Source: Arthrobacter agilis (lineage in GTDB: Bacteria > Actinomycetota > Actinomycetes > Actinomycetales > Micrococcaceae). From it: 64,000 nucleotides of DNA. The DNA lies in NCBI RefSeq assembly GCF_002157505.1, contig NZ_NFSC01000029.1:186001-250000 (forward strand), written 5' to 3'. Shown here in pieces: positions 5,388-38,509 of this stretch (its first letter is position 1; every line of letters begins with the position of its first letter). The notes under the pieces are model-generated. The model searched no databases. It was given only the letters and a program-made list of their open reading frames with translations, and had not been told where the DNA came from. The position numbers and the translations under genes were made by a program.

Positions 5388-5458
5388 TCTCAGAGTGCAC
5401 GGAAACTGCTCCGGCAGCCCCCGGCACTATCCCCTCCTGTGTCCCAGGAGGAAACACC

Positions 5459-10989: not shown

Positions 10990-11109
10990 ACGCCGTACTT
11001 GCCAACCGGGGGACTGGTCCCGGCGGCCGAATCTTCACCTGGAGCACCCCACTACGGGAGAGGGTTGCTGTCCAGCCGGCCAGGGCCCAGGGCTGGAGCT
11101 CTTGATTTC
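10990..11109 (-). ncRNA. SAM riboswitch (SAM-I/IV clan, SAM-IV-like)
   Basis: Read on the minus strand, the region contains a stem CCAGCC/GGCTGG, then CAGCAACCCTCTCCCG, then GTGGGGTGCTCCAGGTGAAG. These match the conserved core of S-adenosylmethionine aptamers of the SAM-I/SAM-IV clan (GGCAACCCTCC..., GGGGTGCCCCGGGTGA). A basal pairing AATC/GATT and a downstream hairpin CCGGG/CCCGG followed by GGCAAGTACGG resemble the extra hairpin and pseudoknot of SAM-IV. It begins a few bases after a good promoter and precedes the amino-acid ABC operon. Exact subclass needs a covariance-model search. Confidence 0.8.
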
Positions 11110-23620: not shown

Positions 23621-23662
23621 CGTTTCGCGCCTCCTTTTCCTCCAGTCTAAATCGGCCCCAAC

Positions 23663-23697
23663 TATCTCCACGATGGATATACTCTGGAATAGAGATA
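23663..23697. promoter_or_regulatory. Inverted repeats between marR and MMPL gene (operator candidate)
   Basis: Two overlapping symmetric elements lie in the divergent promoter: TATC-N9-GATA (23663-23679, with inner TCCA/TGGA) and CTCT-N5-AGAG (23682-23694). The outer arms TATCTC and GAGATA (23663-23668, 23692-23697) are also complementary. They would suit binding of a MarR dimer. Confidence 0.55.
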
Positions 23698-23717
23698 ACG
23701 CGAGGAAGGCCCGGTTC

Positions 23718-25865
23718 ATGGGAAACAGATGGTTGAGGGCGCTCCTACCCGTCGTCCTCGTGCTGGTCTGGCTGGTGGGTGCGGCAGTGGGCGGTCCGAC
23801 CTTCGGGCGGCTCGACGAGGTCTCGAGCAACGACTCCGCGTCCTTCCTGCCCGCCAGTGCCGAGTCGACCGAGGCCGGAGAGTTGCAGCAGCGCTTCAAC
23901 GACTCGGACGCCATCCCCGCCGTGATCGTCGCCGAGTCCGACACCGCGATCGACCCACGCGACCTCGGCTCCTACGAGGAGCTCAGCGTAACGCTCGGCA
24001 GGGTCGAGGGGCTCGAGCCCCCGGCCGAGGGGGCCCCTGCGGTCGCCGGGCCCATCCCGTCGGAGGACGGATTCGCCGTTCAGTATCTCGCCTTCGTCCC
24101 CTCCGACGCGGAGCTCGCCGAGGTGGTCGGCGAGTTGCGGACGATCCTGGACGACGAGCTGCCCGACGGCGTCACGGGGTACGTGACCGGCCCGGCCGGG
24201 TTCACCAACGACCTCGTCGAGGCCTTCGGTGGCATCGACGGCATCCTGCTGGCCGTGGCGCTCCGCGCCGTGTTCGTCATCCTCCTCGCCGTCTACCGCT
24301 CGATCGTGCTGCCGTTCCTCGTCCTGCTGACCTCGGTGTTCGCACTGGCGACGTCGATCCTGCTGGTCTTCGGCTTCGCGAAGCTCGACTGGATCCAGCT
24401 CACGGGCCAGAGCCAGGGCATCCTGTCGATCCTCGTGATCGGCGCGGCCACGGACTACGCGTTGCTACTCGTCGCGCGGTTCCGGGAGGCGCTCGCGGAG
24501 AACGAGACGAAGTGGGAGGCCATGCGCGTGGCCTACCGCGGCTCGTTCGAGCCGATCCTCGCGTCCGGTGCCACGGTGATCCTCGGCCTGCTGTGCCTGC
24601 TCTTCTCGGACCTCAACTCGAACCGGAGCCTCGGGCCGATCGCCGCGATCGGCATCGTCTTCTCGCTCGGAGCAGCGCTCACGTTCCTCCCGGCACTCCT
24701 GCTCCTCTTCGGCAGGGGTGCTTTCTGGCCCCTGCGACCGCGCTACCGCCCTCGTACCGAAGCGGCGCCCCGGGGCAGGCATGCGGCAGCCGCCGGACCC
24801 GACGCCGGACCCGACACCGCACTCGAGCGGCTCGGAGGCGTGTGGAAGCAGGTGGCCCTGCTCGTGGCCCGCCGTCCGCGGGTGCTGTGGATCGCGTCGC
24901 TGCTGATCCTGGTCGCCGGTGCCCTCGGGCTGGCCCAGCTGCAGGCCAGCGGCGTGCCGCAGTCCGCCCTGATCCTGACGCCGTCGAACGCGGTCGACGG
25001 CCAGGACGCACTCGCCCGCCACTTCGATGCCGGGTCCGGCAGCCCGGTCTACGTCGTCGCGCCCGAGGCCGACCAGGAGGCGGCGCTCGAGGTCGTCGCG
25101 GCGCAGGAGGGCATCTCCGAGGCCTCCCTCACCACGGGCCCTCGCGGCACCGCCGTCGTCGAGGACGGGCAGGTGCTCATCAGCGGCACGCTCGAGTACC
25201 AGGCGGACTCGGAGAAGGCCGAGGACGTGGTGCGCGAGCTGCGGACCGCGCTCGACGACGGCAGCCCGGACGCACTGGTCGGCGGTGTGACGGCGGTGGC
25301 GATCGACACGAACGACACCGCGCTCGCCGACCTCGTCAAGATCATCCCGATCGTCCTGGCGGTCATCCTCGTCGTGCTGATCATCCTGCTCCGCTCCGTG
25401 CTCGCACCGGTTCTCCTCGTCGCCAGTGTGGCGCTCTCCAACGCGACGGCCCTCGGAGTCTCGGCGCTGGTGTTCAACAGCGTCTTCGGGTTCGAGGGCG
25501 CGGACGCTTCGGTGCCGCTCTTCGCCTTCGTGTTCCTGGTGGCGCTCGGCGTGGACTACAACATCTTCCTCATGACACGGGTGCGGGAGGAGTCCATCCG
25601 GATCGGTACGCGGCCGGGGATCCTCCGCGGACTGGGGGTCACCGGAGGCGTGATCACCTCGGCCGGCGTGGTGCTGGCGGCGACCTTCGCGGCGCTCGGC
25701 GTGATCCCGATCCTCTTCCTCGCGCAGATCGCCTTCATCGTGGCGTTCGGCGTCCTGCTGGACACCGTGCTGGTGCGCTCGCTGCTGATCCCCGCCCTGG
25801 CGTACGACATCGGTCCAAAAATCTGGTGGCCCTCGAAGCTCGGCGCGGTGCCGTCGGCGCGGTAG
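23718..25865 (+). CDS. MMPL-family RND transporter
   Basis: 715 residues with the duplicated RND layout: one N-terminal membrane helix (LPVVLVLVWLVGAAVGG), an extracytoplasmic domain (about residues 35-190), five membrane helices, a cytoplasmic stretch (about 360-400), a second single helix and domain, and a final five-helix block. The conserved GAATDYALLLVARFREAL and LGVDYNIFLMTRVREES motifs carry the proton-relay aspartates. Mycobacterial relatives export lipids; here drug or lipid export under MarR control is likely. GAGGAAGG lies before the ATG at 23718. A hairpin terminator follows. Confidence 0.92.
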   Translation: MGNRWLRALLPVVLVLVWLVGAAVGGPTFGRLDEVSSNDSASFLPASAESTEAGELQQRFNDSDAIPAVIVAESDTAIDPRDLGSYEELSVTLGRVEGLEPPAEGAPAVAGPIPSEDGFAVQYLAFVPSDAELAEVVGELRTILDDELPDGVTGYVTGPAGFTNDLVEAFGGIDGILLAVALRAVFVILLAVYRSIVLPFLVLLTSVFALATSILLVFGFAKLDWIQLTGQSQGILSILVIGAATDYALLLVARFREALAENETKWEAMRVAYRGSFEPILASGATVILGLLCLLFSDLNSNRSLGPIAAIGIVFSLGAALTFLPALLLLFGRGAFWPLRPRYRPRTEAAPRGRHAAAAGPDAGPDTALERLGGVWKQVALLVARRPRVLWIASLLILVAGALGLAQLQASGVPQSALILTPSNAVDGQDALARHFDAGSGSPVYVVAPEADQEAALEVVAAQEGISEASLTTGPRGTAVVEDGQVLISGTLEYQADSEKAEDVVRELRTALDDGSPDALVGGVTAVAIDTNDTALADLVKIIPIVLAVILVVLIILLRSVLAPVLLVASVALSNATALGVSALVFNSVFGFEGADASVPLFAFVFLVALGVDYNIFLMTRVREESIRIGTRPGILRGLGVTGGVITSAGVVLAATFAALGVIPILFLAQIAFIVAFGVLLDTVLVRSLLIPALAYDIGPKIWWPSKLGAVPSAR

Positions 25866-26086: not shown

Positions 26087-26129
26087 TGCACAGCAACTGC
26101 ACAGGTTCTGGAAAGCGGCGGTCTAGGTC
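26087..26129 (+). promoter_or_regulatory. PhoP-box promoter A (upstream of the small exported protein and phoPR)
   Basis: TGCACAG-CAAC-TGCACAG (26087-26104) is a direct repeat with an 11-nt period, followed after exactly 19 nt by TAGGTC (26124-26129). The repeat matches the published mycobacterial PhoP box form (TCACAGC-N4-TCACAGC). The repeat sits where a -35 would be, as expected for activation by an OmpR-type regulator. Two other promoters in this region have the same geometry. Confidence 0.7.
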
Positions 26130-26175
26130 TGCGCGGGAGAGTTGGAGAACAGACACCACCCGCCAGGAGGACACC

Positions 26176-26433
26176 ATGATCAGCTACCGTCCCACCCCCG
26201 AACTGACCGCCGGACGCACGGGCTTCAAGGCTGCCATCGGAGCCATGGCCCTCGCTGCGGTCCTCGGCACCACCGCCTTCGCCCCGATCGGAGCCGAGTC
26301 GGACCCCCAGGCCGAGGAGGCCCCTGCGGTCGTCGGGGCCGCCGCCATCGGTGCCATCCCCGCCGAGCAGGCACTCCTCCGCCGGGACGGCTCGCTCGAC
26401 CAGGGCGCTGCGGCAGGTCCGCTCCAGGCCTGA
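26176..26433 (+). CDS. Small exported or membrane-anchored hypothetical protein
   Basis: 85 residues. After a basic start (ELTAGRTGFK), a 20-residue hydrophobic stretch AIGAMALAAVLGTTAFAPIGA looks like a signal peptide with possible cleavage after it. The mature part is only about 45 residues, acidic then ending DGSLDQGAAAGPLQA. AGGAGG lies 6 nt upstream. I do not recognise it. Its place between a PhoP-box promoter and the phoPR genes suggests that it belongs to that regulon, possibly as an accessory sensor, though this is inference. Confidence 0.7.
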   Translation: MISYRPTPELTAGRTGFKAAIGAMALAAVLGTTAFAPIGAESDPQAEEAPAVVGAAAIGAIPAEQALLRRDGSLDQGAAAGPLQA

Positions 26434-26547
26434 CGCCGGCCCCGGTCCGCCGCTCCGCAAGACCCGTACGGAATACTGGACCACAACGCTCAGCCCGCAT
26501 TCGCTCCGGCCTCGGCCGGTACCTCCGGAAGACACCAGGAAGACCCG

Positions 26548-27297
26548 ATGGCCGACGCCTCGCACCACTCCATGACCGACAACCTGCCGCGCCTCGCGCA
26601 TCCCGACGGCAGCCCGATCCGCGCCCTCGTCGTCGACGACGAGACGAGCCTGGCGGAACTCGTCAGTATGGGCCTCCGGATGGCGGGCTGGAGCGTGACG
26701 ACGGCCAGTGACGGCGCCGCCGCCGTTTCCGCGGCGCGCGACTTCCGCCCCGACGTCCTGGTCCTCGACGTCATGATGCCCGGCGTCGACGGCATCGAGG
26801 CGCTCAAGAGGATCCGCACGTTCGCACCGAACGTCCCTGCCCTGTTCCTCACCGCGAAGGACGCCGTACAGGACCGCATCTCCGGGCTCTCCGCCGGCGG
26901 CGACGACTACGTCACCAAGCCCTTCAGCATGGAGGAGCTTCTGCTGCGCCTCCACCGCCTGGTCCAGCGTTCCGGCGTCGCGGCGTCGGATTCCGCAGAA
27001 CTGGTGGTCGGGGACCTCGTGATGAACGTCGACACGCGTGAAGTCACCCGCAATGGAGAGGACATCGCCCTGACCTCCACCCAGTGGGAGCTGCTGCGCT
27101 ACCTCATGGAGAATCCGCGCCGTGTGGTCAGCAAGTCCCAGATCCTCGACAACGTGTGGAACTATGACTTCGGCGGCCAGGCGAACATCGTCGAGCTGTA
27201 CATCTCCTACCTCCGCAAGAAGATCGATGCCGGGCGCACACCCATGATCCACACCGTCCGCGGCGCCGGGTACGTGCTCAAACCCGCGGCTTCGTGA
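26548..27297 (+). CDS. phoP: OmpR/PhoB-family response regulator, PhoP-like
   Basis: 249 residues. A receiver domain (about residues 25-140) has the acidic pair VVDDE, phosphoacceptor D74 in VLDVMMPG, and the lysine in TKPFS. A winged-helix DNA-binding domain (about 150-245) ends in VELYISYLRKKID and IHTVRGAGYVL. The sequence is closest in feel to mycobacterial PhoP (shared PALFLTAKD, GGDDYVTKPFS, NVWNYDFGG). It is coupled to the sensor kinase gene by a 4-nt overlap. Promoter A lies upstream of the small gene ahead of it, so autoregulation is likely. Confidence 0.9.
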   Translation: MADASHHSMTDNLPRLAHPDGSPIRALVVDDETSLAELVSMGLRMAGWSVTTASDGAAAVSAARDFRPDVLVLDVMMPGVDGIEALKRIRTFAPNVPALFLTAKDAVQDRISGLSAGGDDYVTKPFSMEELLLRLHRLVQRSGVAASDSAELVVGDLVMNVDTREVTRNGEDIALTSTQWELLRYLMENPRRVVSKSQILDNVWNYDFGGQANIVELYISYLRKKIDAGRTPMIHTVRGAGYVLKPAAS

Positions 27298-28811
27298 CTC
27301 CTCCGCATCCCGCGGGTGCCCGGCCGGGCCGCCGTCCGCTGCATTTGCGCACGAAACTGATCCTGGCGACTCTCGCGCTGCTCACGGCGATCTGCGTGGC
27401 CATCGGTGTCCTCAGCCACCTCGCCATGAGCAGCTACCTCACGGGGCAGCTCGACGACGCACTCATGCCCGCCGCCGGGCGCGCCGGTTTCCCCGGCGGG
27501 CGCCCGCCCGGCGACGACGACGACCGGCCCTTCCGGAACGTGGATCCGGAGAACGCGGCCGGCCAGCGTCCGGGCACGCTCAACGCTGTGTTCCTTGATG
27601 ACGAGGCACAGAACTCCGCGCTCGTGCAGGATGACGGCACCACGGAACCGCTCACCGACGCCGACCTCGACGTACTCTCCGCCGTCGACCCCGGCAGCGG
27701 ACCCGAGGAACTGGAGCTTTCCAGCGGGCGCTACCGCGTCGACGCCGCGGCCCTGCCCACCGACCTCACCCCCGACGGCTCCGTCCTCGTCACCGGCCTG
27801 TCCACCACCGAGCGCGACAGCACCCTCGTCTCCCTCGACATCACGGTGGCCGGACTCTCCCTGGCCGGACTGGCGCTGACCGGGCTCGCCGGAACGGTGA
27901 TCATCCGGCGGTCCCTGCGCCCCCTCGAGGAACTGTCAGCCGTCGCGACGTCCGTCTCGCAGCTTCCCCTGTCCTCCGGCGAAGTGGCCATCCCCGTGCG
28001 GGTCCCCCCTGCCGCGGCCCAGCCCGGCACGGAGGTCGGCACCGTGGGGCTGGCCCTGAACGAGATGATCGACCACGTCACGAGCGCCCTGCGGGAACGC
28101 CATGCGAGCGAGATGAAGGTGCGGCAGTTCGTGGCGGACGCGAGCCACGAACTCCGCACGCCCCTGACCTCCATTCGCGGCTACACGGAGCTGGTCCTCA
28201 TGAGCGAGACCGTGAGCCCGTCCGGACGGTCCGCGCTGGAACGCGTGGACAGTGAGTCGAAGCGCATGTCGTCCCTCGTCGAGGACCTCCTGCTGCTCGC
28301 ACGCCTCGACGAGGGCCAGCGCGGCGAGGCGTCCGACGTCGACCTCACGGAACTCGTGATCGAGACGACGAGCGACGCGCAGGTGGCCGCACCGGGCTAC
28401 ACCTGGAGCCTGGACCTGCCGGACGAGCCCGTCGAGGTGCGGGCGGTCGAGGCCGAGGTCCGCCAGGTGCTCATCAACCTGCTCTCCAACGCGCACAAGC
28501 ACACCCCGCCGGGCACGGCGATCTCCACCGCGCTCGCAGTGGGGGAGGGACGCGCGAGCATCACCGTCACGGACTCGGGTCCGGGCATCGATCCGGCCTT
28601 CCTCGACACCATCTTCACCCGGTTCAGCAGGGGGGACGCGGCGCGGTCCGCGAGCGCGGGCAGCACGGGCCTCGGCCTCGCGATCGTCCAGGCGCTCGTC
28701 GAGGCGAACGGTGGGAGCATCAGCGTGACCAGTGAGCCGGGCCGCACGCAGTTCCGCGTGGACCTCCCGATCTCACAGCCCGCTCACATGCCGGACCAAG
28801 AGCACGCCTAG
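27294..28811 (+). CDS. phoR: Sensor histidine kinase, partner of the PhoP-like regulator
   Basis: 505 residues. TM1 is LILATLALLTAICVAIGVLSHLAM (about residues 22-45), then an extracellular sensor region of about 130 residues rich in Asp and Pro, TM2 (about 180-205), a HAMP linker, and the kinase core. The H box is ASHELRTPLTSIRGY with His285; the N box INLLSNAHKHT, G1 DSGPGID and G2 GLGLAIV are intact. It should phosphorylate the regulator encoded just upstream. The GTG start overlaps that gene's stop (GTGA). Promoter B lies inside its last codons. Confidence 0.93.
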   Translation: MTPPHPAGARPGRRPLHLRTKLILATLALLTAICVAIGVLSHLAMSSYLTGQLDDALMPAAGRAGFPGGRPPGDDDDRPFRNVDPENAAGQRPGTLNAVFLDDEAQNSALVQDDGTTEPLTDADLDVLSAVDPGSGPEELELSSGRYRVDAAALPTDLTPDGSVLVTGLSTTERDSTLVSLDITVAGLSLAGLALTGLAGTVIIRRSLRPLEELSAVATSVSQLPLSSGEVAIPVRVPPAAAQPGTEVGTVGLALNEMIDHVTSALRERHASEMKVRQFVADASHELRTPLTSIRGYTELVLMSETVSPSGRSALERVDSESKRMSSLVEDLLLLARLDEGQRGEASDVDLTELVIETTSDAQVAAPGYTWSLDLPDEPVEVRAVEAEVRQVLINLLSNAHKHTPPGTAISTALAVGEGRASITVTDSGPGIDPAFLDTIFTRFSRGDAARSASAGSTGLGLAIVQALVEANGGSISVTSEPGRTQFRVDLPISQPAHMPDQEHA

Positions 28812-28814
28812 GCT
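28772..28814 (+). promoter_or_regulatory. PhoP-box promoter B (upstream of the thymidylate-kinase-like gene)
   Basis: CTCACAG-CCCG-CTCACAT (28772-28789) is followed after exactly 19 nt by TAGGCT (28809-28814), 25 nt before the ATG at 28834. The leader CGTAGAACTGG-GTATG is shared with promoter C. The site lies in the last codons of the kinase gene. Confidence 0.72.
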
Positions 28815-28833
28815 CCGGTCGTAGAACTGGAGT

Positions 28834-29535
28834 ATGACTCCAGCAGCACAGAGCACCACCGCCCGCTTCATCGTCGTCCTGGCAGGCATCGACGGCGCGG
28901 GCAAGACGACGGCTGCGCATGCCCTCGGCCGGCTCCTCGGGCCATCCCGGCCCACCCTCGTCCTCGCCAACCACTCGGGACGGCGCACCCTGGCCGCGTG
29001 GCTCGACCGATCCGGACGAACCCTTCCGGCGTGTGTCCTCGACGTCGCCGAGTCCGCCGTCCGGTCGGTCAACGTGATCGCGAACCACCTGCGCGCCAGA
29101 CGGTTCGACGGCGTGGTCATCATGGACCGGCACCTCCACTGCCAGCAGGCGCTGCGCGTCGCCCGCGGGCTCGGCCGTGGTCGGGTCCTCTCTGCCCTGG
29201 CACGGATGCTTCCCGCTGACACCGTGGTGTTCCTCGACGCCAGCCCCGAGGAAGCCCACCGCCGGATCACGGCGCGGGGCACCGATGCCGAGAGCCTCGA
29301 GCACCTCCGGGCCTACCGGGAGGGCTACCTCGCTCTTCCCGAGTTCGCAGGCTTCCACCGGGTGGCTGCGGATGCACCCTTGCTGGCCGTCCTCGACGAC
29401 ATCGAGGAGGTCATCAGTCGGGGGACGCCGTCGGTGGAGGATCCCCTGATCGGGGCGCACGGATGCACATTCCCGGCTGTGGCAGGGCACAGCGGCGGCA
29501 CAGCAACGCTGGCGAGGGTTGAGGTGGACCACTAG
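28834..29535 (+). CDS. Thymidylate-kinase-like P-loop nucleotide kinase
   Basis: 233 residues. Walker A GIDGAGKTT (about residues 18-26), a DRH motif (VIMDRHLHCQQAL) like the DR motif of thymidylate kinases, and a lid-like RRITARGTDAESLEHL are visible, followed by a C-terminal tail. Overall shape is that of dTMP kinase, but the LID and substrate loops differ from housekeeping Tmk. It begins the CotH-led group and has its own PhoP-box promoter; its stop is 20 nt before the CotH start. The phosphate acceptor cannot be told from sequence. Confidence 0.75.
   Translation: MTPAAQSTTARFIVVLAGIDGAGKTTAAHALGRLLGPSRPTLVLANHSGRRTLAAWLDRSGRTLPACVLDVAESAVRSVNVIANHLRARRFDGVVIMDRHLHCQQALRVARGLGRGRVLSALARMLPADTVVFLDASPEEAHRRITARGTDAESLEHLRAYREGYLALPEFAGFHRVAADAPLLAVLDDIEEVISRGTPSVEDPLIGAHGCTFPAVAGHSGGTATLARVEVDH
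29486..29503 (+). promoter_or_regulatory. PhoP-box-like repeat E upstream of the CotH gene (weak)
   Basis: GGCACAG-CGGC-GGCACAG is a perfect 7-4-7 direct repeat 52 nt before the CotH start, inside the end of the preceding gene. No TAGGNY hexamer occurs at the 19-nt spacing, so it may be an operator without its own promoter, or chance. Confidence 0.4.
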
Positions 29536-29554
29536 CCGCCACCAGAAGGACACC

Positions 29555-31120
29555 ATGCCCCGCCCACCGCTCATCGTCTCCACTGCCGTCGCCGTCGCCC
29601 TCTCGCTTGCCGGGTGCAGCGCGATCGGCACCGCCGATATCACCGCCCTCAACAGCACGACGGGGGCGGTTCCGGGGCCGGCCACCGGGTCGACCCTCTT
29701 CGCCGGCACGTCCCACACCGTGAGCGTCGAGTGGGACGAGGCCGAGTACGACGCCATGATCGATGCCTACGGAACCGACGGGTCGAAGGACTGGATCCAT
29801 GCCACGATCACGATCGACGGAACGGTGCTCGAGGACGTGGGGGTGCGCCTCAAGGGGAACTCGACCCTCCGCGGGCTCGAGGGTACGGGCGGGATGGGCG
29901 GCTTCGGTGGAACCGCTGCCGATGTGTCGGCGGACGCCCCTCAGACCCTGCCGCTGCTCGTCGACTTCGACAAGTACGTCGACGGCCAGGACTACGAGGG
30001 CCTCACCCAGCTCGCCATCCGGCCGGGCAGCCCTGTTGTCAACGAGGCCCTGGCTCTGGCCCTCACAGCTGCCTCGGGACAGGCGAGCCAGCGTTACGCA
30101 TACACCACCTACTCCGTGAACGGCAGTGCGACCGAGACCCGGCTGGTCATCGAGAACCCCGACGAGGCCTACGCCGACGCGCTCGACACGTCCGGCGTGC
30201 TGTTCAAGGCCGACGCCGAGTCGAGCTTCACCTACCAGGGTGACGACCTCGCCACGTACGAGGAGCAGTTCAAGCAGCTCAATGCGGAAGGCACGGCGGA
30301 TTTCCAGCCCATCGTGGACTTCCTCCAGTGGATGGAGGGAGCGAGCGATGAGGAGTTCGATGCCGGCCTCGCCGATCGGGTGGACGTGGACTCCTTCGCA
30401 CGGTACGCGGCCACCATGAACCTGCTGGTCAACGGCGATGACATGGCAGGGCCGGGCCAGAACTACTACCTGCGCTACGACCTCGAGACCCGGAAGATCT
30501 CGGTGCTGTCCTGGGACCTCAACGGGGCTCTGACGGGCGATGCCTCGTTGTCGCCCGACGAGGAACCGACCATCGGCGGGATGGGGGGCCCGGGTGGCGT
30601 CCGTCCCGACCGCGGGCAGGCCACTGACGGAACGACCGACGGCACGGCTGGTGGCACGGCCGGTGAAGCAGCACCGTCCGAGCAGTCGTCTGCCGACGCC
30701 GCGAGCGGCACGGTCGCGGGAGTGACCACCACGATGGTGGTTTCGCAGGACGACCAGCCGGGCGGGGGCCTGATCGACCCCGGTGCCGTGCCGGCGCCGG
30801 GTGTTCCCGGCTCCGGAGGGCAGGATAGCGCTGCTCCAGGGGCCCCCGACGCGCCCGGAGGCAGGGGCGGACGAGGCGGGAACCAGCTCAAGGAGCGCTT
30901 CCTGGCGTCGGAAGCCTTCGCGGAGGCATACAGCTCCGCCTACGCGGACCTGTACGAGCAGCTGTACGGCAGTGGCACGGCGGCGGATGTGCTCGACGAC
31001 ATCGCGGCCTCCATCCCCACTTCTGATGCCCTGACGCAGGAGGAGATCGACCAGCAGGTGGAGACCGTGGCGTCGTTCGTCGAGGACCGGACGGAGGCCC
31101 TGGCCGGCGACGTCGGCTGA
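29555..31120 (+). CDS. CotH-type protein kinase, lipoprotein
   Basis: 521 residues. The N-terminus MPRPPLIVSTAVAVALSLAGC ends in a lipobox (LAGC), so it is a secreted lipoprotein. The CotH domain shows HTVSVEWDEAEYDAM, WIHATITIDGTVLEDVGVRLKGNSTLRG, FARYAATMNLLVNGDDM and YYLRYDLETRKISVLSWDLNGAL. CotH proteins phosphorylate serines of exported proteins using an atypical fold; the usual WDxD appears as WDLN here. A Gly/Asp/Ser-rich linker (about residues 345-445) splits the domain from its helical C-terminus. RBS AGAAGGA precedes the ATG; the upstream in-frame start at 29519 was rejected because it would hide the signal peptide. Confidence 0.85.
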   Translation: MPRPPLIVSTAVAVALSLAGCSAIGTADITALNSTTGAVPGPATGSTLFAGTSHTVSVEWDEAEYDAMIDAYGTDGSKDWIHATITIDGTVLEDVGVRLKGNSTLRGLEGTGGMGGFGGTAADVSADAPQTLPLLVDFDKYVDGQDYEGLTQLAIRPGSPVVNEALALALTAASGQASQRYAYTTYSVNGSATETRLVIENPDEAYADALDTSGVLFKADAESSFTYQGDDLATYEEQFKQLNAEGTADFQPIVDFLQWMEGASDEEFDAGLADRVDVDSFARYAATMNLLVNGDDMAGPGQNYYLRYDLETRKISVLSWDLNGALTGDASLSPDEEPTIGGMGGPGGVRPDRGQATDGTTDGTAGGTAGEAAPSEQSSADAASGTVAGVTTTMVVSQDDQPGGGLIDPGAVPAPGVPGSGGQDSAAPGAPDAPGGRGGRGGNQLKERFLASEAFAEAYSSAYADLYEQLYGSGTAADVLDDIAASIPTSDALTQEEIDQQVETVASFVEDRTEALAGDVG

Positions 31121-31244
31121 ACGGGTGGACGCCCGCGAGGCTCTTGCGGCACCGCGTGGCACCTGCCGCCGTCCTTCCGCAAGCTTTGCGCAAGAACCCG
31201 TGGATGCCGCGCCACGGGTGCGGACCGTCGCTACCCTTGGGAGT

Positions 31245-31700
31245 GTGCCCACCCATCCGACTCCGCCACTTCCTGGCCAGCGCCAGGACAGCGGGACGGT
31301 ACCCCCGCGCGCCGATGCCGTCCAGGCTCCGAACGCGCGCGGAAAGGCTGCGCCGCTCCTCGATCCTGCCGTCCTCCGGGACATGGAACGGGACTTCCCT
31401 GGCACGTCCGTCGTCGAGCGGTTCGCCCGCGACTTCGCGGAGACCCTGGTGGGAAAGCTCGATCGGCTGGAGTTCCGGGTCGCCGAGGGCGACCCGACAC
31501 GCGCGGAGGATGCCGTCCTGAGCGTCACGACGTCGGCAGCGATGGTGGGCGCCACCCGCCTCACCCATGCCGCGATCGCAACGCAGCGGCTCATCGCGGC
31601 CGACGACCTCGAGGGCGCGCAGCGGTCGGTCGCCCTCCTCCGGGCTTGCGCCGCTGACACCATCTGCGAACTGCAGGAAACCTACCCGCGACGTCCCTGA
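31245..31700 (+). CDS. Hpt-like (histidine phosphotransfer) domain protein, possibly degenerate
   Basis: 151 residues from a GTG at 31245. Residues about 45-150 resemble an Hpt four-helix domain (LLDPAVLRDMERDFPGTSVVERFARDFAETLVGKLDRLEFRVAEGDPTRAEDAVLSVTTSAAMVGATRLTHAA in pieces). In normal Hpt domains the second helix carries AHxLKG with the phosphorylated histidine followed by SxxxGATRL; here that site reads VLSVTTSAAMVGATRL and the histidine is a leucine. TACCCT lies 7 nt before the GTG, so it is leaderless. It is convergent with the next response regulator, with which it may interact. Confidence 0.65.
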   Translation: MPTHPTPPLPGQRQDSGTVPPRADAVQAPNARGKAAPLLDPAVLRDMERDFPGTSVVERFARDFAETLVGKLDRLEFRVAEGDPTRAEDAVLSVTTSAAMVGATRLTHAAIATQRLIAADDLEGAQRSVALLRACAADTICELQETYPRRP

Positions 31701-31739
31701 CCCGACGCCTGACCTGATGTCTGACCTGATGGCCGGGTG

Positions 31740-32555
31740 CTAACGCGACCGGGCCTGCCCGGGGAGGATCCGGAACCCGACACCGCGGACCGTGACGATG
31801 AGCTCCGGATTCCCGTCGGCGCGGGCCAGCTTCTGGCGGAGGTTGGCGATGTGCACCTCGATGGCCCGTTCGTCGGTCCGGCTCACGAAGTTGTACCCGC
31901 GGTAGTCCCGGCCCCGCGAGACACGCACCAGGTCCTCTTTCGTCCGAACGGCACCGTTGCTGCGCATCAGTTCGTGCAGCAGGTTGAACTCCGTCTTCGT
32001 GAGCGGCAGCTCGATGCCTGAACAGGTCGCGGTGCGGGCCTCGCCGTCCACCACGAGGCTGCCGTTCCGCAGGAGGTGGTCCGACGACTTCCCGGCTCCG
32101 CCGTCGTCGGACGGGGTGCTGGAGGCGACGAGGGCGGGCACCGGCGGCGCAGGCGTGGAGAGTGCGTGCTGGCCGATGCGGGGCCTGCGGAGCATCGCGT
32201 CGATGCGCGCCCTCAGCTCGCGGGGCCGGAACGGCTTCAGGATGTAGTCGTCGGCGCCCGCCTGGAGGGCCGTGAGAATGTCCATCTCGTCCGCGCGTCC
32301 GCTCAGGACGACCACGTAGCAGTCGGTTGTGGACCTGATCCGCCGGAGGACCTCGTACCCGTCGATATCGGGCAGTCCGATGTCCAGGGTCACCACGATC
32401 GGGTGTTCCTGGCGGACCACGTCCACACCCTCGCGCCCGGTGGTCGCACCGCTGACCTGGAAACCGCCCTGCTCGAGGACGGCGGAGACGAGGTTGCGGA
32501 TGTCGAGATCGTCCTCGATGACGACGGCCGCGCGGCGATCCCCCGAGCTACTCAT
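31740..32555 (-). CDS. OmpR-family response regulator, apparently without an adjacent kinase
   Basis: 271 residues. The receiver domain (about residues 10-125) has the acidic pair VIEDD, phosphoacceptor D58 in TLDIGLPD, and lysine in LKPFRPRE. A Pro/Ser-rich linker (about 140-175) leads to the winged-helix domain (about 180-268) with ELPLTKTEFNLLHEL, RAIEVHIANLRQKL and VRGVGFRIL. No kinase gene lies beside it; the convergent Hpt-like protein could be a partner. Start at 32555 has AGG upstream and overlaps a small upstream frame. Confidence 0.9.
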   Translation of the reverse strand: MSSSGDRRAAVVIEDDLDIRNLVSAVLEQGGFQVSGATTGREGVDVVRQEHPIVVTLDIGLPDIDGYEVLRRIRSTTDCYVVVLSGRADEMDILTALQAGADDYILKPFRPRELRARIDAMLRRPRIGQHALSTPAPPVPALVASSTPSDDGGAGKSSDHLLRNGSLVVDGEARTATCSGIELPLTKTEFNLLHELMRSNGAVRTKEDLVRVSRGRDYRGYNFVSRTDERAIEVHIANLRQKLARADGNPELIVTVRGVGFRILPGQARSR

Positions 32556-32688
32556 GACCTGACGCTCCCCGATGGTGCTGGAGTGCCGCGCCCGGTGGAT
32601 CGACCGACGATGCCTGCGCCAGGGCAAGGGAGCCGGCGGCTGCGGCCATAGTGAAGGCGACGCTGTTGAATTCGCGTGTCCGAGGCAT
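32548..32688 (-). CDS. Possible small leader peptide upstream of the response regulator
   Basis: 46 residues, starting MPRTREFNSVAF, with a hydrophobic middle (TMAAAAGSLALAQ). The frame overlaps the response regulator start by 8 nt, which would allow translational coupling. No clear ribosome binding site is seen and no family is recognised, so it may be spurious. Confidence 0.3.
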   Translation of the reverse strand: MPRTREFNSVAFTMAAAAGSLALAQASSVDPPGAALQHHRGASGHE

Positions 32689-32891
32689 ATTCTCTGGACC
32701 TGTTCTCTTCGGCGGCCCGGCTGACCTCTTGGGTCCCGTGGCTTTGCGTCCCCGGCTCACACCGGGTTTGCCTTTATCGACGAGCGGCTGCCCGCCCGAT
32801 GATTTTAGCAACCTCCGGGAGCACGTCTACCCCTTGCCGGTAGTGCCACGTCACTCGCCATGATGCTCGTCCTCCAGGCCCCCGCCGGATG

Positions 32892-32934
32892 CTCACAGCC
32901 GCGGCACAAGAACGGCACACAGCAGCCATAGGGC
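32892..32934 (+). promoter_or_regulatory. PhoP-box promoter C (upstream of the phosphodiester glycosidase gene)
   Basis: CTCACAG-CCGC-GGCACAA (32892-32909) is followed after exactly 19 nt by TAGGGC (32929-32934), 25 nt before the ATG. A third half-site GGCACAC (32914-32920) continues the 11-nt period. The leader CGTAGAACTGG-GTATG is almost the same as that of promoter B. Further upstream, 32699-32891 shows no other structure. Confidence 0.75.
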
Positions 32935-32953
32935 CGCTCCGTAGAACTGGGGT

Positions 32954-34024
32954 ATGCCAACCTCCACGAAGCCCCGCAAGCCAAGCCGCCTCCGTAAGAC
33001 CATCCTCGCCTCGTCCCTCGCCGTGACCCTCGCCGCGGGTGGCACCACGGCCTGGGCCCTCGACCGCTTCGTCGTCGAGAAGGTGGAGATCTCGGACGTC
33101 TCCGCCTACGAGGCGGCTCAGGCAGGATCGACGGACAGCGCCACGGACAGCGCCACGGACAGCGCCACGGACAGCGCTACGGACAGCGCCACGGACAGCG
33201 CTACGGACAGCGCTACGGACAGCGCTACGGACAGCGCTACGGACAGCGCTACGGACAGCGCTACGGACAGCGCCCTGACCGGCACCTCCTACACCTCGGA
33301 GGACAGCAGCATCGACATTTCCACCGTCGTCACGGGATCCGGTGACGAGACCGTCACCTACTACGTGGCCGACGTCGAACTCACCGACGCCACGACCCTC
33401 CGCTCGGCGTTCGCGGACGACAGCTTCGGCGAGAACATCACCGAGACCACGTCGGCCATCGCCGAGGCCAACAACGCCATCTTCGCCATCAACGGCGACT
33501 ACTACGGCTTCCGCGATACCGGGATCGTCATCCGCAACGGCGTGGTCTACCGGGACGAAGGCGCACGGCAGGGCCTCGCCTTCTACACGGACGGCACTGT
33601 TCAGGTCTACGACGAGACCACCACGACCGCGGAGCAGCTGCTCGCGGACGGCGTCTGGAACACGCTGTCCTTCGGCCCGTCCCTCCTCGACGACGGCGAG
33701 ATCGCGGCCGGCATCGAGGACGTCGAGGTGGACACCAACTTCGGCAACCACTCGATCCAGGGGGAACAGCCCCGCACCGCCGTCGGCGTGATCGACGAGA
33801 ACCACCTCGTCTTCGTCGTCGTCGACGGGCGCTCGGACGGCTACAGCGACGGCGTCACGATGACCGAGCTCGCCGGGATCATGCAGGGGCTGGGGGCCAC
33901 GACGGCGTACAACATCGACGGCGGAGGGTCCTCCACCATGTACTTCGACGGCGAACTGGTGAACAACCCGCTCGGCAAGGGCGAGGAACGCGCCACCTCC
34001 GACATCCTGTACATCGGCGAGTAG
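32954..34024 (+). CDS. Phosphodiester glycosidase (NAGPA) family protein with TDSA repeat
   Basis: 356 residues. A single N-terminal membrane segment (TILASSLAVTLAAGGTTAWAL, about residues 17-37) anchors or exports it. Residues about 60-107 are a low-complexity spacer of twelve TDSA repeats. Residues about 125-356 form the NAGPA domain: NAIFAINGDYYGFRDTGIVIRNG, FGNHSIQGEQPRTAVG, and YNIDGGGSSTMYFDGELVNNP, which carries the family's D-G-G-G-S motif. Members cleave phosphodiester-linked sugars; in bacteria they often sit in exopolysaccharide loci. First gene of the glycosyltransferase-VTC group. Confidence 0.85.
   Translation: MPTSTKPRKPSRLRKTILASSLAVTLAAGGTTAWALDRFVVEKVEISDVSAYEAAQAGSTDSATDSATDSATDSATDSATDSATDSATDSATDSATDSATDSATDSALTGTSYTSEDSSIDISTVVTGSGDETVTYYVADVELTDATTLRSAFADDSFGENITETTSAIAEANNAIFAINGDYYGFRDTGIVIRNGVVYRDEGARQGLAFYTDGTVQVYDETTTTAEQLLADGVWNTLSFGPSLLDDGEIAAGIEDVEVDTNFGNHSIQGEQPRTAVGVIDENHLVFVVVDGRSDGYSDGVTMTELAGIMQGLGATTAYNIDGGGSSTMYFDGELVNNPLGKGEERATSDILYIGE
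33131..33274 (+). repeat. 12-bp tandem repeat (12 copies) in the glycosidase gene
   Basis: Twelve units of ACGGACAGCGCY, each coding Thr-Asp-Ser-Ala, run without interruption for 144 bp. Units differ only at the last base (C or T). The array encodes a flexible acidic spacer between the membrane anchor and catalytic domain. Unit number is likely variable between strains. Confidence 0.97.
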
Positions 34025-34033
34025 GGGGCACCG

Positions 34034-35224
34034 GTGATCATCCTCATCCCCGCCTACGAACCCGACGGCAAGCTCCCGCAGCTCGTCGGCGACCTGCTCG
34101 TTGCGGATCCCCGCCTTCTGGTCCTCGTGGTCGACGACGGCAGCGGTCCCCGCTTCAGCACCGTGTTCGACGACGCCCGCCGCGCCGGTGCCACCGTGAT
34201 CGGGTACCCGCACAATCGCGGGAAAGGGCAGGCGCTCAAGACCGGCTTCGGCTACGCGGAGCGCCACCACCCGGGGGAGGGCGTGGTCTGCGCCGACAGC
34301 GACGGCCAGCACGCCGTGCCGGACATCCTCCGCGTGGCCGCCCGCGTCCGGCCGGACGGCTCTCCGCGCTGGACCGGCTCCACGATGGTGCTGGGGGAGC
34401 GTGCGTTCGACGGCGACGTGCCGGTGCGGAGCCGCCTCGGCAACGCACTCACGCGCACCCTGTTCCGGGTTGCGGCGGGCGTCGGGCTGCACGACACGCA
34501 GACGGGGCTCCGCGGGTACCCCGCGGCGATGCTTCCGTGGCTGCAGTCGGTGCGGGGCGACCGCTACGAGTACGAACTGAACCTGCTGCTGCAGGCCGGC
34601 AAGGCGGGCCATCGGATCGACAGCATTCCGATCTCGACCATCTACCTCACCGGCAACAGCTCGTCCCACTTCCGGCCGCTCGTGGACTCCGCACGCATCT
34701 ACGCCCCGTTGCTCGCGTTCTCCCTGTCCTCGCTGGCCGCATTCGGCATCGACCTGGCAGCCTTCGTGGTCCTCGGCCTGCTGACGGACTCCCTGCTCCT
34801 GGCCGTCGTGGGAGCGAGGGCACTCAGCTCGTCGGTCAACTTCCTGGCGAACCGGCGCCTCGTCTTCGCCGAGGGCCGGCACCGGCCGCTGTCCGCCGCC
34901 GCTCTGCGGTACTTCACGCTCGTCGTCGCCCTGCTGGCCGCGAACTATGCCGGAATCTTCCTGCTCACCGACGCAGGGGTGCCGGAGGTGGCGGCGAAGG
35001 TCTTCACCGAAACCGCTCTCTTCATCACCAGCTTCACCGTGCAGAAACGCTTCCTCTCGGGCAGGGGCGCGGCCCCCACGCCCCGCGTCCCCAGGCCGGC
35101 GCTCCCTCGGGGCGCCGGACCGGAGACCGGGCCTGTCCCGCAGGCAGTGCCGGCACCCGACGCGGTGCCGGCCTTCACCCCAGTGCCGACGTCGGATGCG
35201 GCACAGGGCCGCCGCGTCGCCTGA
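34034..35224 (+). CDS. Glycosyltransferase family 2 fused to a GtrA-like membrane domain
   Basis: 396 residues. Residues about 1-210 are a GT2 (GT-A) domain: IILIPAYEPDGKLPQL, VVDDGSGPRFSTV, HNRGKGQALKTGF, and CADSDGQHAVPDI (the DxD-like motif). Residues about 225-345 form a four-helix GtrA-type domain (LAAFGIDLAAFVVLGLL, FLANRRLVF, FTVQKRFLSG). Such fusions use lipid-linked sugars at the membrane, as in cell-surface glycan glucosylation. The Pro-rich tail from about residue 350 is low-complexity. The GTG start at 34034 lies 10 nt after the glycosidase stop, so the two are cotranscribed. Confidence 0.9.
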   Translation: MIILIPAYEPDGKLPQLVGDLLVADPRLLVLVVDDGSGPRFSTVFDDARRAGATVIGYPHNRGKGQALKTGFGYAERHHPGEGVVCADSDGQHAVPDILRVAARVRPDGSPRWTGSTMVLGERAFDGDVPVRSRLGNALTRTLFRVAAGVGLHDTQTGLRGYPAAMLPWLQSVRGDRYEYELNLLLQAGKAGHRIDSIPISTIYLTGNSSSHFRPLVDSARIYAPLLAFSLSSLAAFGIDLAAFVVLGLLTDSLLLAVVGARALSSSVNFLANRRLVFAEGRHRPLSAAALRYFTLVVALLAANYAGIFLLTDAGVPEVAAKVFTETALFITSFTVQKRFLSGRGAAPTPRVPRPALPRGAGPETGPVPQAVPAPDAVPAFTPVPTSDAAQGRRVA

Positions 35225-35261
35225 CCCTCGTCCTGAGTGCTCATATGCCGTGCTCTGCCCC

Positions 35262-35279
35262 GGCACAGCACCGGCACAG
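35262..35279 (+). promoter_or_regulatory. PhoP-box-like repeat D upstream of the DUF4956 gene (weak)
   Basis: GGCACAG-CACC-GGCACAG is a perfect 7-4-7 direct repeat 54 nt before the DUF4956 start. TAGAAG follows after 15 nt (35295-35300), not 19, so it may be an operator with a different spacing. Confidence 0.5.
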
Positions 35280-35332
35280 CATGCCCTCGCATCGTAGAAG
35301 AAGAACTTCCCCCACCTCCCGGAGAATCCACC

Positions 35333-36052
35333 ATGAACATCCTGATCCTCATCGCCGCCGACCTTCTGGCGATCACCTTCCTCACCGTCGGCCTGTACCT
35401 GCGCCGCCACCGCCGTCGCGACCTCGTGGTCTCCTACCTCGGCATGAACGTCGGTGTCCTCGCGGTGGCCACGGCGCTCTCGGGTTCGGCTGCCGGCGTA
35501 GGACTCGGCCTCGGGCTGTTCGGCGTGCTCTCGATCATCCGCCTCCGCTCCACCGAGCTCGCCCAGCACGAGGTGGCCTACTACTTCTCAGCGCTGGCCC
35601 TAGGGCTCATCGCGGGTCTCGGCGCCGAGCCGCTGTGGCTGCCACTGGCACTCATGGGCCTGATCCTCGTGGTCATGGTCATCGGTGACTCCTCCCGGGT
35701 GTTGCCCGGGTACCGGCACCAGACCGTGGTGCTGGACCAGGCCATCGGTGACGAAGAGGTCCTCCAGGCGCGCCTTGCGGAGGTCCTTTCTGCCCGGATC
35801 CATTCCGCCACGGTGTCCGAACTGGACCTCGTCAATGACAAGACCGTCGTCGAGGTCCGCTTTGAAGTGGCACCGGCCCGGCCCCGAACGCCGGCGACGC
35901 CGTCGATCGCCGTGCTCCCGGAGGGCCGGCCGGCGGGCACCACCTACACGGACCTGCCCGAGACCACGCCTGCCGCGGACCCGGCCCACGTGCCCGAGCA
36001 ACGGCACGACCGGGACAGCCTGGCGGGCAGCGCACAGGCGGGGGTGTCGTGA
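35333..36052 (+). CDS. DUF4956 membrane protein
   Basis: 239 residues with five membrane segments in the first 135 residues (LILIAADLLAITFLTVGLYL, LGMNVGVLAVATAL, GVGLGLGLFGVLSIIRLR, YYFSALALGLIAGLG, LPLALMGLILVVMVI). The RLRSTELAQHEVAYYF loop matches DUF4956. The cytoplasmic C-terminus (about 145-239) has an alpha-beta domain then a Pro-rich tail. DUF4956 genes commonly sit beside VTC-type polyphosphate polymerase genes, as here, where the polymerase start overlaps this stop by 4 nt. GGAGA precedes the ATG. Function is unproven; a membrane partner for the polymerase is likely. Confidence 0.9.
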   Translation: MNILILIAADLLAITFLTVGLYLRRHRRRDLVVSYLGMNVGVLAVATALSGSAAGVGLGLGLFGVLSIIRLRSTELAQHEVAYYFSALALGLIAGLGAEPLWLPLALMGLILVVMVIGDSSRVLPGYRHQTVVLDQAIGDEEVLQARLAEVLSARIHSATVSELDLVNDKTVVEVRFEVAPARPRTPATPSIAVLPEGRPAGTTYTDLPETTPAADPAHVPEQRHDRDSLAGSAQAGVS

Positions 36053-36828
36053 CCGGCGGCGACTTCGCGGGCCTCGATGCCCGCCCTTCCGTCAGCCTCG
36101 ACGAGCTCAACACCGCAGCCGCCCTGCAGACCAGGGTGGACCGGAAGTACGTGGTCGGGGCGCGGCTGGCAGGCAGTGTTCTCGATGCCTTCGCCGCCGA
36201 GGTCCGCGTCCTCGAGATGCTCGGGCGTCGTTCCTTCACCTACGACTCCGTCTACTTCGACACCCCCGACCTCGACAGCTATCTGCTCGCCGCCCACGGC
36301 AGGCGCCGCCGGTACAAGATCCGCACCCGCACGTACGTGGACAGTGGCACCAGCTTCCTCGAAGTGAAGACCGAGGGCGCCCGTGCGGCAACGGTCAAGG
36401 AACGCATCCCCTACGCGCTCTCCGACAGCCACCGCCTCACCCCCGAGGGCCTCGCCTACATCAGCGAGACACTGAGCAGCTCCATCGGTTCGTTGCCCTC
36501 CGGGGTCCTCGAGCCCGTGATCGAGACCCGGTACCGCCGCATAACGCTGTACCTGCCGGAGTCGGAGAGCCGGGCGACGATCGACCTCGGCGTCACCTGG
36601 CGCAGGCCCGGCGGCCGTCCCCACGAACTCGACGGCGCGGTCATCCTCGAGACGAAATCGGGCAGCGCAGCAAGCGCCCTCGATCGCCACCTCTGGGCCT
36701 CCGGCATCCGGCCGAGCCGGATCTCCAAGTTCGCCACCGGCATGGCCGCCCTCGACCCGACGCTTCCCGCCAACCGCTGGCACCGCACCATCTCCACATC
36801 CCTCCCGCTCCGCCCCCTTTCCCGCTGA
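36049..36828 (+). CDS. VTC-domain polyphosphate polymerase-like protein
   Basis: 259 residues forming a single triphosphate-tunnel (CYTH/VTC) domain. Residues in the tunnel are present: RVDRKYVVG near the start, YDSVYFDTPDLDSY, RRRRYKIRTRTYVDSGTSFLEVKTEG, VKERIPY, EPVIETRYRRI, RATIDLG, VILETKS and SRISKFATG. The basic and acidic residues in these strands are those that bind the polyphosphate chain and metal in yeast Vtc4. It is cytosolic by sequence, so coupling to the DUF4956 membrane protein (overlapping start) probably exports or anchors its product. A shift of function to another triphosphate substrate is possible. Confidence 0.88.
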   Translation: MTGGDFAGLDARPSVSLDELNTAAALQTRVDRKYVVGARLAGSVLDAFAAEVRVLEMLGRRSFTYDSVYFDTPDLDSYLLAAHGRRRRYKIRTRTYVDSGTSFLEVKTEGARAATVKERIPYALSDSHRLTPEGLAYISETLSSSIGSLPSGVLEPVIETRYRRITLYLPESESRATIDLGVTWRRPGGRPHELDGAVILETKSGSAASALDRHLWASGIRPSRISKFATGMAALDPTLPANRWHRTISTSLPLRPLSR

Positions 36829-36880
36829 CCTCCCGCTCTAACCTCCCGCTCCGCCCTCCCGCCCTGACCAAAGGACTCCC

Positions 36881-38509
36881 ATGCTCACCGTTCCCCGCCC
36901 CGCCTCCCCCCGCAGCGCCGCCCTCAAGACCTCCGTCGCCGCCCTCGCACTCGCCCTCTCCCTCGCCGGCTGCGGCACGGGCACCACGAACGCCGGCTCG
37001 ACCACCACCACGCAGGACCCGGCGACAGCAGAGGCGACAGCCGAAGCAACCGCAGCGGATGACGCGGCAGCTGACACGGCAAGCGATACGGCAGACGCGA
37101 CCGCCGTCGTCGCCGCCGATGCCGTCACCGAGGACACGCACTACGACGCCGACGACCTCACGTGGGATGCTGCGGAAGAGATCCCGGTCACCCTCGCGGA
37201 CGGTGCGAGCAGCGCGGGTGACGGTGTCACCGTCGACGGCGATACCGTCACCATCACCGCAGCCGGGACCTACCGGCTGTCCGGAAGCCTCAGCGACGGC
37301 CAGGTCGTCGTCGCTGCGGGGGAGGAGGACGTGGTCCGCGTCATCCTCGACGGCGTCGAGTTGGCGAGCAGCACCGGATCGCCCTTCGTGGTCACGAGCG
37401 CCAATGAGGCTCTCCTGTACCTCGAGGACGGCAGCACCAACATCCTGACCGACGCCGACAGCTACGCGGACCCCGGCACGGACGCCCCGAACGCCGCCCT
37501 GTACTCGATGGCCGACCTCACCATCGCCGGCGCCGGATCCCTCACCGTCAACGGCAATGCCAACAACGGCATCGTCTCCAAGGACGGCCTGGTCCTGGCG
37601 GCCGGCGACGTCACCGTCGAGGCCGTGGACGACGGTATCGAGGGCAAGGACTACGTGGCCCTGCTCGGCGGGACCTACGACGTCACGGCCGGCGGCGACG
37701 GCGTGAAGTCCACCAACGAGGACGAGGACGGCCGCGGCTGGCTCACGGTGTACGGCGGGCAGCTCGTGGTGTCCTCGGGCGACGACGGTGTCAAGGCCGC
37801 CACCATCCTCACCGTCGACGCGGGAACGGTGAACGTCACCGAATCCGTCGAAGGCCTGGAAGCGCAGCACATCGCCGTCGACGGCGGCACTGTCGAGGTG
37901 ACCTCCAGCGACGACGGCGTGAACGCGGCAGGCGGATCGTCCGGCACCACCGGTGGCGGGGGCGGAATGGGCGGCGGTGGCATGGAGGTAGGCGACTACA
38001 CGGTCAGCGTGACCGGTGGAACCCTGACCATCAACTCCGAGGGCGACGGCCTCGACTCCAACGGCGATGCCAGCATCACGGGAGGCACCGTCGTCGTGAA
38101 CGGACCGACCGGTGACGGCAACGGCGCACTCGACGTGAACGGCGAGCTGACCGTCGACGGCGGCACCGTCGCCGCGGCAGGCAGCGCCGGCATGGTCGTC
38201 ACGCCGGGTTCGTCGTCGACGCAGTCGGGTGTGCAGCTCACCCTCGCCTCGACGGTCCCCGCCGGTACCGCCGTCCAGATCGCCTCGGCGGACGGCGCCG
38301 TCGTGGGCTCCTTCGTCGCCACCAAGGACATGGCATCGCTGATCTTCTCCTCGGCGTCGATCACGGACGGGGAGACCTACACGGTCTACACCGGTGGCAC
38401 CACCGCAGCGACGGAAGGCATCACCGAGGGCACTCTGGACGGGGCGGACGAACTCGGAACCGTTACCGCCGGCGAGTACACCCAGTCACAGGGACCCGGA
38501 GGCCGCTGA
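36881..38509 (+). CDS. Cthe_2159-type carbohydrate-binding lipoprotein
   Basis: 542 residues. The N-terminus carries a signal peptide with lipobox (SLAGC, cysteine about residue 31), an Ala/Thr/Asp-rich spacer to about 80, and then a right-handed repetitive beta structure with many G-x-x-T-V-x-G-D and DDG turns (VDDGIEGKDYVALLGGTYDVTAGGDGVKSTN, DDGVKAATILTVDAG, SDDGVNAAGG). This pattern matches the Cthe_2159-like polygalacturonan/calcium-binding surface proteins (PF14262). A Gly-rich loop (GGGGGMGGGGMEVG) lies near residue 365. It is the last gene of the VTC group, 52 nt after the polymerase. It is probably an anchored surface protein that binds an acidic polymer. Confidence 0.85.
   Translation: MLTVPRPASPRSAALKTSVAALALALSLAGCGTGTTNAGSTTTTQDPATAEATAEATAADDAAADTASDTADATAVVAADAVTEDTHYDADDLTWDAAEEIPVTLADGASSAGDGVTVDGDTVTITAAGTYRLSGSLSDGQVVVAAGEEDVVRVILDGVELASSTGSPFVVTSANEALLYLEDGSTNILTDADSYADPGTDAPNAALYSMADLTIAGAGSLTVNGNANNGIVSKDGLVLAAGDVTVEAVDDGIEGKDYVALLGGTYDVTAGGDGVKSTNEDEDGRGWLTVYGGQLVVSSGDDGVKAATILTVDAGTVNVTESVEGLEAQHIAVDGGTVEVTSSDDGVNAAGGSSGTTGGGGGMGGGGMEVGDYTVSVTGGTLTINSEGDGLDSNGDASITGGTVVVNGPTGDGNGALDVNGELTVDGGTVAAAGSAGMVVTPGSSSTQSGVQLTLASTVPAGTAVQIASADGAVVGSFVATKDMASLIFSSASITDGETYTVYTGGTTAATEGITEGTLDGADELGTVTAGEYTQSQGPGGR

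Follow-up and report, generated by a model that had tools for sequence, protein, structure and literature searches.

The locus considered here raises the question of whether a run of neighbouring genes in Arthrobacter agilis forms one system and, if so, what that system would make. It lies in a window of 64,000 nucleotides (contig NZ_NFSC01000029.1 of assembly GCF_002157505.1, positions 186,001 to 250,000, forward strand). An earlier note, based on the sequence alone, had joined six of its genes, encoding a CotH-family kinase, a NAGPA protein, a GT2-GtrA protein, a DUF4956 protein, a VTC domain and a Cthe_2159-type lipoprotein, into a PhoPR-linked cluster that would make, export and tie a phosphate-rich polymer to the cell surface. 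The analysis presented below shows that the conserved unit is the DUF4956-VTC gene pair, mostly with a variable exported partner, and not one fixed set. The phosphate-rich surface polymer is the leading interpretation, and it is plausible and partly supported.

All of the named genes are present in the order proposed, with Pfam matches above cut-off. On the plus strand are found the CotH-family kinase lipoprotein (29555..31120, alternative start 29519; PF08757, E 2.5e-22), the membrane-anchored or exported NAGPA (phosphodiester glycosidase) protein (32954..34024; PF09992, E 1.8e-39), the GT2 glycosyltransferase fused to a GtrA membrane domain (34034..35224; PF00535 and PF04138), the DUF4956 membrane protein (35237..36052; PF16316, E 6.2e-57), the VTC-type polyphosphate polymerase domain (36049..36828; PF09359, E 3.6e-23), and the Cthe_2159-type lipoprotein (36881..38509; PF14262, E 3.1e-72). 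The last five are separated by short gaps or overlap. The positions needed some revision: 35333, previously taken as the DUF4956 start, is an internal methionine, and the cluster start at 26087 precedes the first response regulator. The source genome has a single VTC match and a single CotH match. Its closest named relatives are Arthrobacter, the best DUF4956 segment being 77, 76, 72, 76, and 83% identical in the top five rows, of which three are A. agilis.

How far does this arrangement extend? VTC was surveyed in 296 genomes from the phylum, and DUF4956, NAGPA, GT2-GtrA, and PelG in 297 genomes from the order. VTC is present in 32 of the former, and a DUF4956 relative in 106 of the latter, four of these only above 1e-10. 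Profiles built from the proteins of the window were used to call neighbours in three sets of loci: 34 chosen by VTC (31 genomes, the window's excluded), 40 from the order chosen by DUF4956 (39 genomes), and 80 named loci, also chosen by DUF4956 and retained out of 290 encoded relatives. The neighbourhood was examined in 42 of the 106 DUF4956-positive order genomes (the window, the 39 order genomes, G225, and G268). The three sets may share species, only identical DUF4956 cores having been collapsed (from 154 to 151 loci, window included). The VTC-chosen loci carry DUF4956 in 33 cases, CotH in 20, Cthe_2159 in 12, NAGPA in one, and GT2-GtrA in none. All 40 order loci carry VTC, with Cthe_2159 in 33, CotH in two, and NAGPA and GT2-GtrA in 10 each. 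VTC is found in 79 named loci, the sole exception (L161) stopping at a contig end, together with Cthe_2159 (52), CotH (29), NAGPA (43), and GT2-GtrA (43).

Across the 151 distinct loci, VTC lies within 3.5 kb of DUF4956 in 149. Within the same distance, Cthe_2159 occurs without CotH in 90 loci, CotH without Cthe_2159 in 44, both in six, and neither in 11; CotH is thus absent near the core in 101, at a cut-off too short to include the CotH of the window, which is about 4.1 kb from DUF4956. Beyond the profiled families, no open reading frame (ORF) family of at least 120 aa occurs within 5 kb in more than 18 of the 151 loci. The recurrence of the core is far beyond chance, and these counts define the unit as DUF4956-VTC, mostly with an exported partner. 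The neighbourhood analysis across actinobacteria that had been proposed as a check therefore finds conservation well beyond this strain. The recurrence of CotH-DUF4956-VTC-Cthe_2159 as a block holds for its two central genes, the flanking partners varying and occurring together in only six loci.

Some individual loci deserve mention. L167, whose record bears the title Sporosarcina beigongshangi, has a cluster of Arthrobacter type at 71% identity, possibly reflecting a mislabelled or mixed assembly. In L160 and L183, the VTC frames seem shifted near the end, as a result of broken genes or sequencing errors. L048 encodes a single 848-aa frame made of VTC, a lipobox-like hydrophobic stretch, and CotH, possibly a natural fusion that would place VTC inside and CotH outside. 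The control genome of Corynebacterium glutamicum, a laboratory species, gave matches for VTC, CotH, and PPK2 and none for PPK1, and that of Methanosarcina acetivorans for VTC, CotH, PPK1, and PPK2.

The structure model of the VTC protein finds its best match in the tunnel fold of the yeast polyphosphate polymerase Vtc4. The basic tunnel residues and the metal-binding glutamate of Vtc4 are kept, the last three residues coming from a weakly scored stretch of the alignment. The protein has 259 aa, with PF09359 as its sole Pfam match, and no SPX domain was found in it. By this likeness, it is probably a polyphosphate polymerase. DUF4956 combines predicted membrane helices with an ACT-like C-terminal domain (model pLDDT 71.5), and its residues R102 and R104 have a frequency of 1.00 across 156 rows. 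A structural search with the model gave no trustworthy match, including to the MgtC-like membrane fold, the MgtC label for a DUF4956-type protein originating in PMC12345266. That DUF4956 exports polyphosphate is a tentative proposal, to which we give slightly less than even weight. The VTC fold and the adjacent two-component genes would also suit an intracellular phosphate store, that is, a second polyphosphate synthase under two-component control. This is quite improbable here: the partners of the core are exported lipoproteins and a lipid-sugar pair, PPK1 is already present in the genome, and the regulators are not identifiable as PhoPR.

The exported partners would act at the cell surface. 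Both CotH and Cthe_2159 of the window start with a lipoprotein signal and an LAGC lipobox, recognized by eye. The CotH profile matches the solved spore coat protein H 5jd9 (E 6e-9). In B. subtilis CotH, the D228Q and D251A variants were reported inactive (PMC7821199), and in the 5jd9 alignment the aspartate of the WD motif and an earlier aspartate are 23 residues apart, a spacing (counted by eye) equal to that between D228 and D251. D307 and D333 of the window protein reach 98% conservation over 53 rows. Alignment A3, of 30 rows, places the loop differently, and in it D333 is invariant but D307 is not. Both catalytic aspartate regions are kept, and a kinase function is predicted. One could imagine that exported polyphosphate serves CotH as phosphate donor outside the cell, where ATP is scarce, and that surface phosphorylation is the purpose of the cluster. 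The aspartates matching the two B. subtilis sites and the DUF4956-VTC core shared by CotH loci, with no further family in more than 18 of the 151 loci, are consistent with this idea. Nevertheless, because 90 of the 151 loci carry Cthe_2159 and no CotH within 3.5 kb, CotH phosphorylation cannot be the general role of the core, and we are aware of no CotH for which use of polyphosphate has been demonstrated; as an account of the whole system, this is very unlikely. The more frequent partner, the Cthe_2159 protein, has a solved relative, 4peu (E 1.3e-41), which is titled 'Uncharacterized protein' and which we take to be Cthe_2159 itself, a binder of polygalacturonate.

The NAGPA and GT2-GtrA genes form a pair. 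Strong NAGPA matches (<1e-80) occur in 38 order genomes and any match at 1e-3 in 124, where the weaker hits cover the repeat region or the catalytic half; GT2-GtrA (<1e-40) occurs in 39. NAGPA adjoins GT2-GtrA in 38 of 38 genomes. The odd genome, G392, combines a NAGPA fragment (9e-13) with a weaker GT2-GtrA next to it and lacks a DUF4956 match. DUF4956 is present in every one of the 38 genomes with the pair, as against 106 of 297 overall (hypergeometric chance value 6e-20, kinship ignored). Half of these genomes, 19, have the pair within 15 kb of DUF4956; in the other 19 it is at 16 kb (one), more than 250 kb away (five), or on another contig (13). This unlinked co-occurrence is the stronger indication that the pair may act on the product of the DUF4956-VTC core. 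A. agilis UMCV2 has two DUF4956-VTC-Cthe_2159 loci (L135 and L138), with the NAGPA pair at one only.

Animal NAGPA cleaves GlcNAc-1-phosphodiesters, and GtrA domains flip polyprenyl-phosphate-sugar lipids. The window NAGPA matches the solved NAGPA structures 6pki/6pkg at E about 1e-8, its best solved match being 6ozd (1.2e-11), and its N-terminal hydrophobic stretch is kept in the 22 relatives compared. It also contains a 12-base tandem repeat (11.9 copies, window 33131-33273) encoding TDSA repeats, likely a strain-level expansion since the N-terminal stretches of the same 22 relatives have no such array. The nearest NCBIfam model of the GT2 domain is the polyprenyl-phospho-GalNAc synthase PpgS, at 60 of 370 bits and thus far under cut-off. 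By its domains, GT2-GtrA is probably a polyprenyl-phosphate-sugar synthase and flippase.

Taken together, these data suggest the following scheme, in which two bacterial genes, DUF4956 and VTC, would correspond to the eukaryotic VTC complex. In the cytoplasm, the VTC domain would convert ATP phosphate into polyphosphate, and DUF4956, as membrane partner, would hand the chain outward; its ACT-like domain may sense a regulator. At the surface, the Cthe_2159 lipoprotein would retain polyphosphate, or a calcium-bridged acidic glycan, and the CotH lipoprotein would move phosphate onto proteins or glycans there. In those members of the order that have the second gene pair, GT2-GtrA would make and flip a polyprenyl-phosphate sugar, and NAGPA would use or trim a sugar-phosphate bond on the same surface material. 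That VTC and DUF4956 make and export polyphosphate, which CotH, Cthe_2159, and the lipid-sugar/NAGPA branch then use at the surface, is possible, with a likelihood just short of one half. A bolder version, in which a widespread plasma-membrane VTC-DUF4956 polymerase-translocase, independent of PPK and Pel, puts polyphosphate outside the cell, where NAGPA joins it to sugars from the polyprenyl-phosphate made and flipped by GT2-GtrA and where it feeds CotH as donor, is improbable. Of the earlier proposal of a polymer made, exported, and tied to the surface, the recurrence, the Vtc4 fold and residues, and the lipoprotein signals could be established; from these, we infer polymerase activity, export, attachment, and the substrates of the partners.

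Is this set, then, an element of a known exopolysaccharide system? cotH, a polyphosphate polymerase gene, DUF4956, and DUF4832 are pel accessory genes in streptococci and clostridia, with a variant in bifidobacteria (Whitfield 2020, PMC7112168), and this paper and a 2025 study (PMC12345266) give the function of CotH-VTC-DUF4956 in Pel loci as unknown. In S. intermedius, in which the trio is SIR_1592-1594, aggregation and Pel production persisted in all four accessory-gene deletion mutants. The SIR_1592 mutant, lacking a protein with 4 transmembrane (TM) helices and an ACT domain, made more Pel, the CotH mutant made less, and both aggregated less, by more than 50% in 10% artificial sputum medium (PMC12345266). 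From the two papers, we infer that SIR_1592 is DUF4956. The VTC deletion mutant also aggregated and made Pel, with no change of the above kind mentioned in the passages of PMC12345266 consulted. This, the one VTC deletion found in print, disfavours a strong VTC role in the Pel setting. The mutant phenotypes would suit a regulatory role, in which DUF4956 tunes surface glycan synthesis or export, with VTC as a binder or hydrolase of nucleotides or polyphosphate: loss of the presumed DUF4956 raised Pel and loss of CotH lowered it, Pel still being made, and DUF4956 has an ACT-like end (a label taken from PMC12345266). We regard this alternative as unlikely, although less so than the storage and phosphorylation readings, since VTC retains the Vtc4 tunnel residue set and no recurrent glycan polymerase lies nearby, as judged from the unprofiled ORF families counted above.

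In the genomes examined, the core nearly always occurs without Pel genes, as judged by PelG. PelG (PF16933), the sole pel gene used as test, has no match in the source genome and exceeds the cut-off in two of the 297 order genomes (six at E 1e-3). Among the 106 DUF4956-positive genomes, it is over cut-off only in G440, and below it in G313, G436, and G479; G440 serves as positive control, with PelG about 3 kb away from a DUF4956 match that is itself weak. PelG was found in none of the 47 genomes searched that have CotH, VTC, and DUF4956 at one locus; these come from 50 with CotH at the DUF4956 locus, L184 and G186 having been left out and the window's genome searched separately. The authors of the 2025 study failed to find the three-gene arrangement outside Pel (PMC12345266), a claim that the present survey contradicts, as far as PelG can tell. 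Among the hits listed, searches of the open-licence literature showed no description of the whole gene set as a system, in line with what the earlier note had stated, whereas the CotH-VTC-DUF4956 trio had previously been published as Pel accessory genes. New, as far as these searches go, are its wide occurrence without PelG, the exchange of one exported partner for another, and the constancy of the NAGPA pair.

Upstream of CotH lie an OmpR/PhoB-type response regulator (26548..27297, plus; PF00072 and PF00486) and a sensor histidine kinase (27294..28811, plus; Pfam HisKA/HATPase). The name PhoPR could not be upheld: no PhoB, PhoP, or PhoR NCBIfam model was over cut-off among the best 25 of 104 and of 81 matches (PhoB 194 of 296 bits, PhoR 181 of 334), in a library from which an actinobacterial PhoPR model may be absent, and a window-type kinase lies within 3.5 kb of DUF4956 in just 28 of the 151 loci. 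Residues 1-260 of the kinase are 51-86% identical to kinases in ten relative loci and 39% identical to that of L102, a locus from another family; in L137, the kinase is on the opposite strand, about 5 kb off. Because this N-terminal sensor half is conserved near the cluster in relatives, a dedicated two-component pair is likely in Arthrobacter.

Four further features had been overlooked previously. A thymidylate-kinase-like P-loop protein (28834..29535, plus; PF02223, E 1.5e-11) has relatives in two of the 80 named loci. A small ORF (31125..31700, plus), HPt-like by eye only and with no Pfam match, has a relative in L095 alone among 154 loci compared. A second response regulator (31740..32627, minus; PF00072 and PF00486; likely start ATG at 32555) is opposite in strand to VTC, as it is in L095. 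Its leader contains a cyclic di-GMP (c-di-GMP) riboswitch of the c-di-GMP-I-GGC family (32707..32781, minus; RF03167, 68.6 bits, cut-off 59), preceded by a promoter-like site, the ligand being assigned by family name only. Near DUF4956, this riboswitch is common only to G330, of the same genus, and is also found in L095, and a second copy lies elsewhere in the source genome (G000:C22:95316-95390). At the cluster, it is a local addition, of interest because Pel in B. cereus is under c-di-GMP control (PMC7112168). The cluster is flanked by an MMPL transporter upstream (23574-25865) and, downstream of Cthe_2159, by a TetR regulator (38546) and then an EamA transporter (39193). Elsewhere in the window are a SAM-IV riboswitch (10990-11107, minus) and a TPP riboswitch (5273-5397, plus).

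Bacterial polyphosphate is generally regarded as a PPK product kept inside the cell. In a 2023 review of polyphosphate evolution, VTC is shown with its distribution among eukaryotes, and PPK1 is named as the main enzyme of bacteria (PMC10657179). A bacterial VTC with its own membrane protein would, if true, constitute a second polyphosphate route, tied to the cell surface. DUF4956 gains a testable role, and the NAGPA/lipid-sugar pair becomes linked to the DUF4956-VTC core.

Among known systems, the yeast VTC complex shares with the present pair the Vtc4 polymerase fold and tunnel residues, here with a membrane protein encoded alongside. The yeast complex resides in the vacuole membrane, whereas the setting here is a bacterial membrane, no SPX domain was found, and the membrane partner is DUF4956. 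Three-component glycosylation systems comprise a GT2, a GtrA flippase, and a GT-C. GT2 and GtrA are both found here, fused, but the adjoining partner is NAGPA; no GT-C match was obtained among the cluster genes scanned, the rest of the genome not having been searched for one. The CotH spore-coat kinases (5jd9; PMC7821199) belong to the same family as the window CotH and have the same catalytic aspartate positions; here, however, no spore-coat gene is found among the scanned neighbours, and the protein is an Arthrobacter lipoprotein. NELoc-2 of C. perfringens also brings together VTC/polyphosphate polymerase genes, CotH, and a glycosyltransferase, according to PMC2879425 and PMC11677781, and the 'tubulin/FtsZ' neighbours of its VTC genes (226 and 222 aa, membrane; PMC2879425) are probably DUF4956; the genes other than VTC, CotH, the glycosyltransferase, and these DUF4956 candidates are not the same. 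Finally, the Gram-positive Pel accessory set likewise holds CotH, a VTC-type polymerase, and DUF4956 together, the window CotH being about 4 kb upstream of DUF4956, but in the clusters described here PelG is lacking, CotH is often replaced by Cthe_2159, and the NAGPA/GT2-GtrA pair is added.

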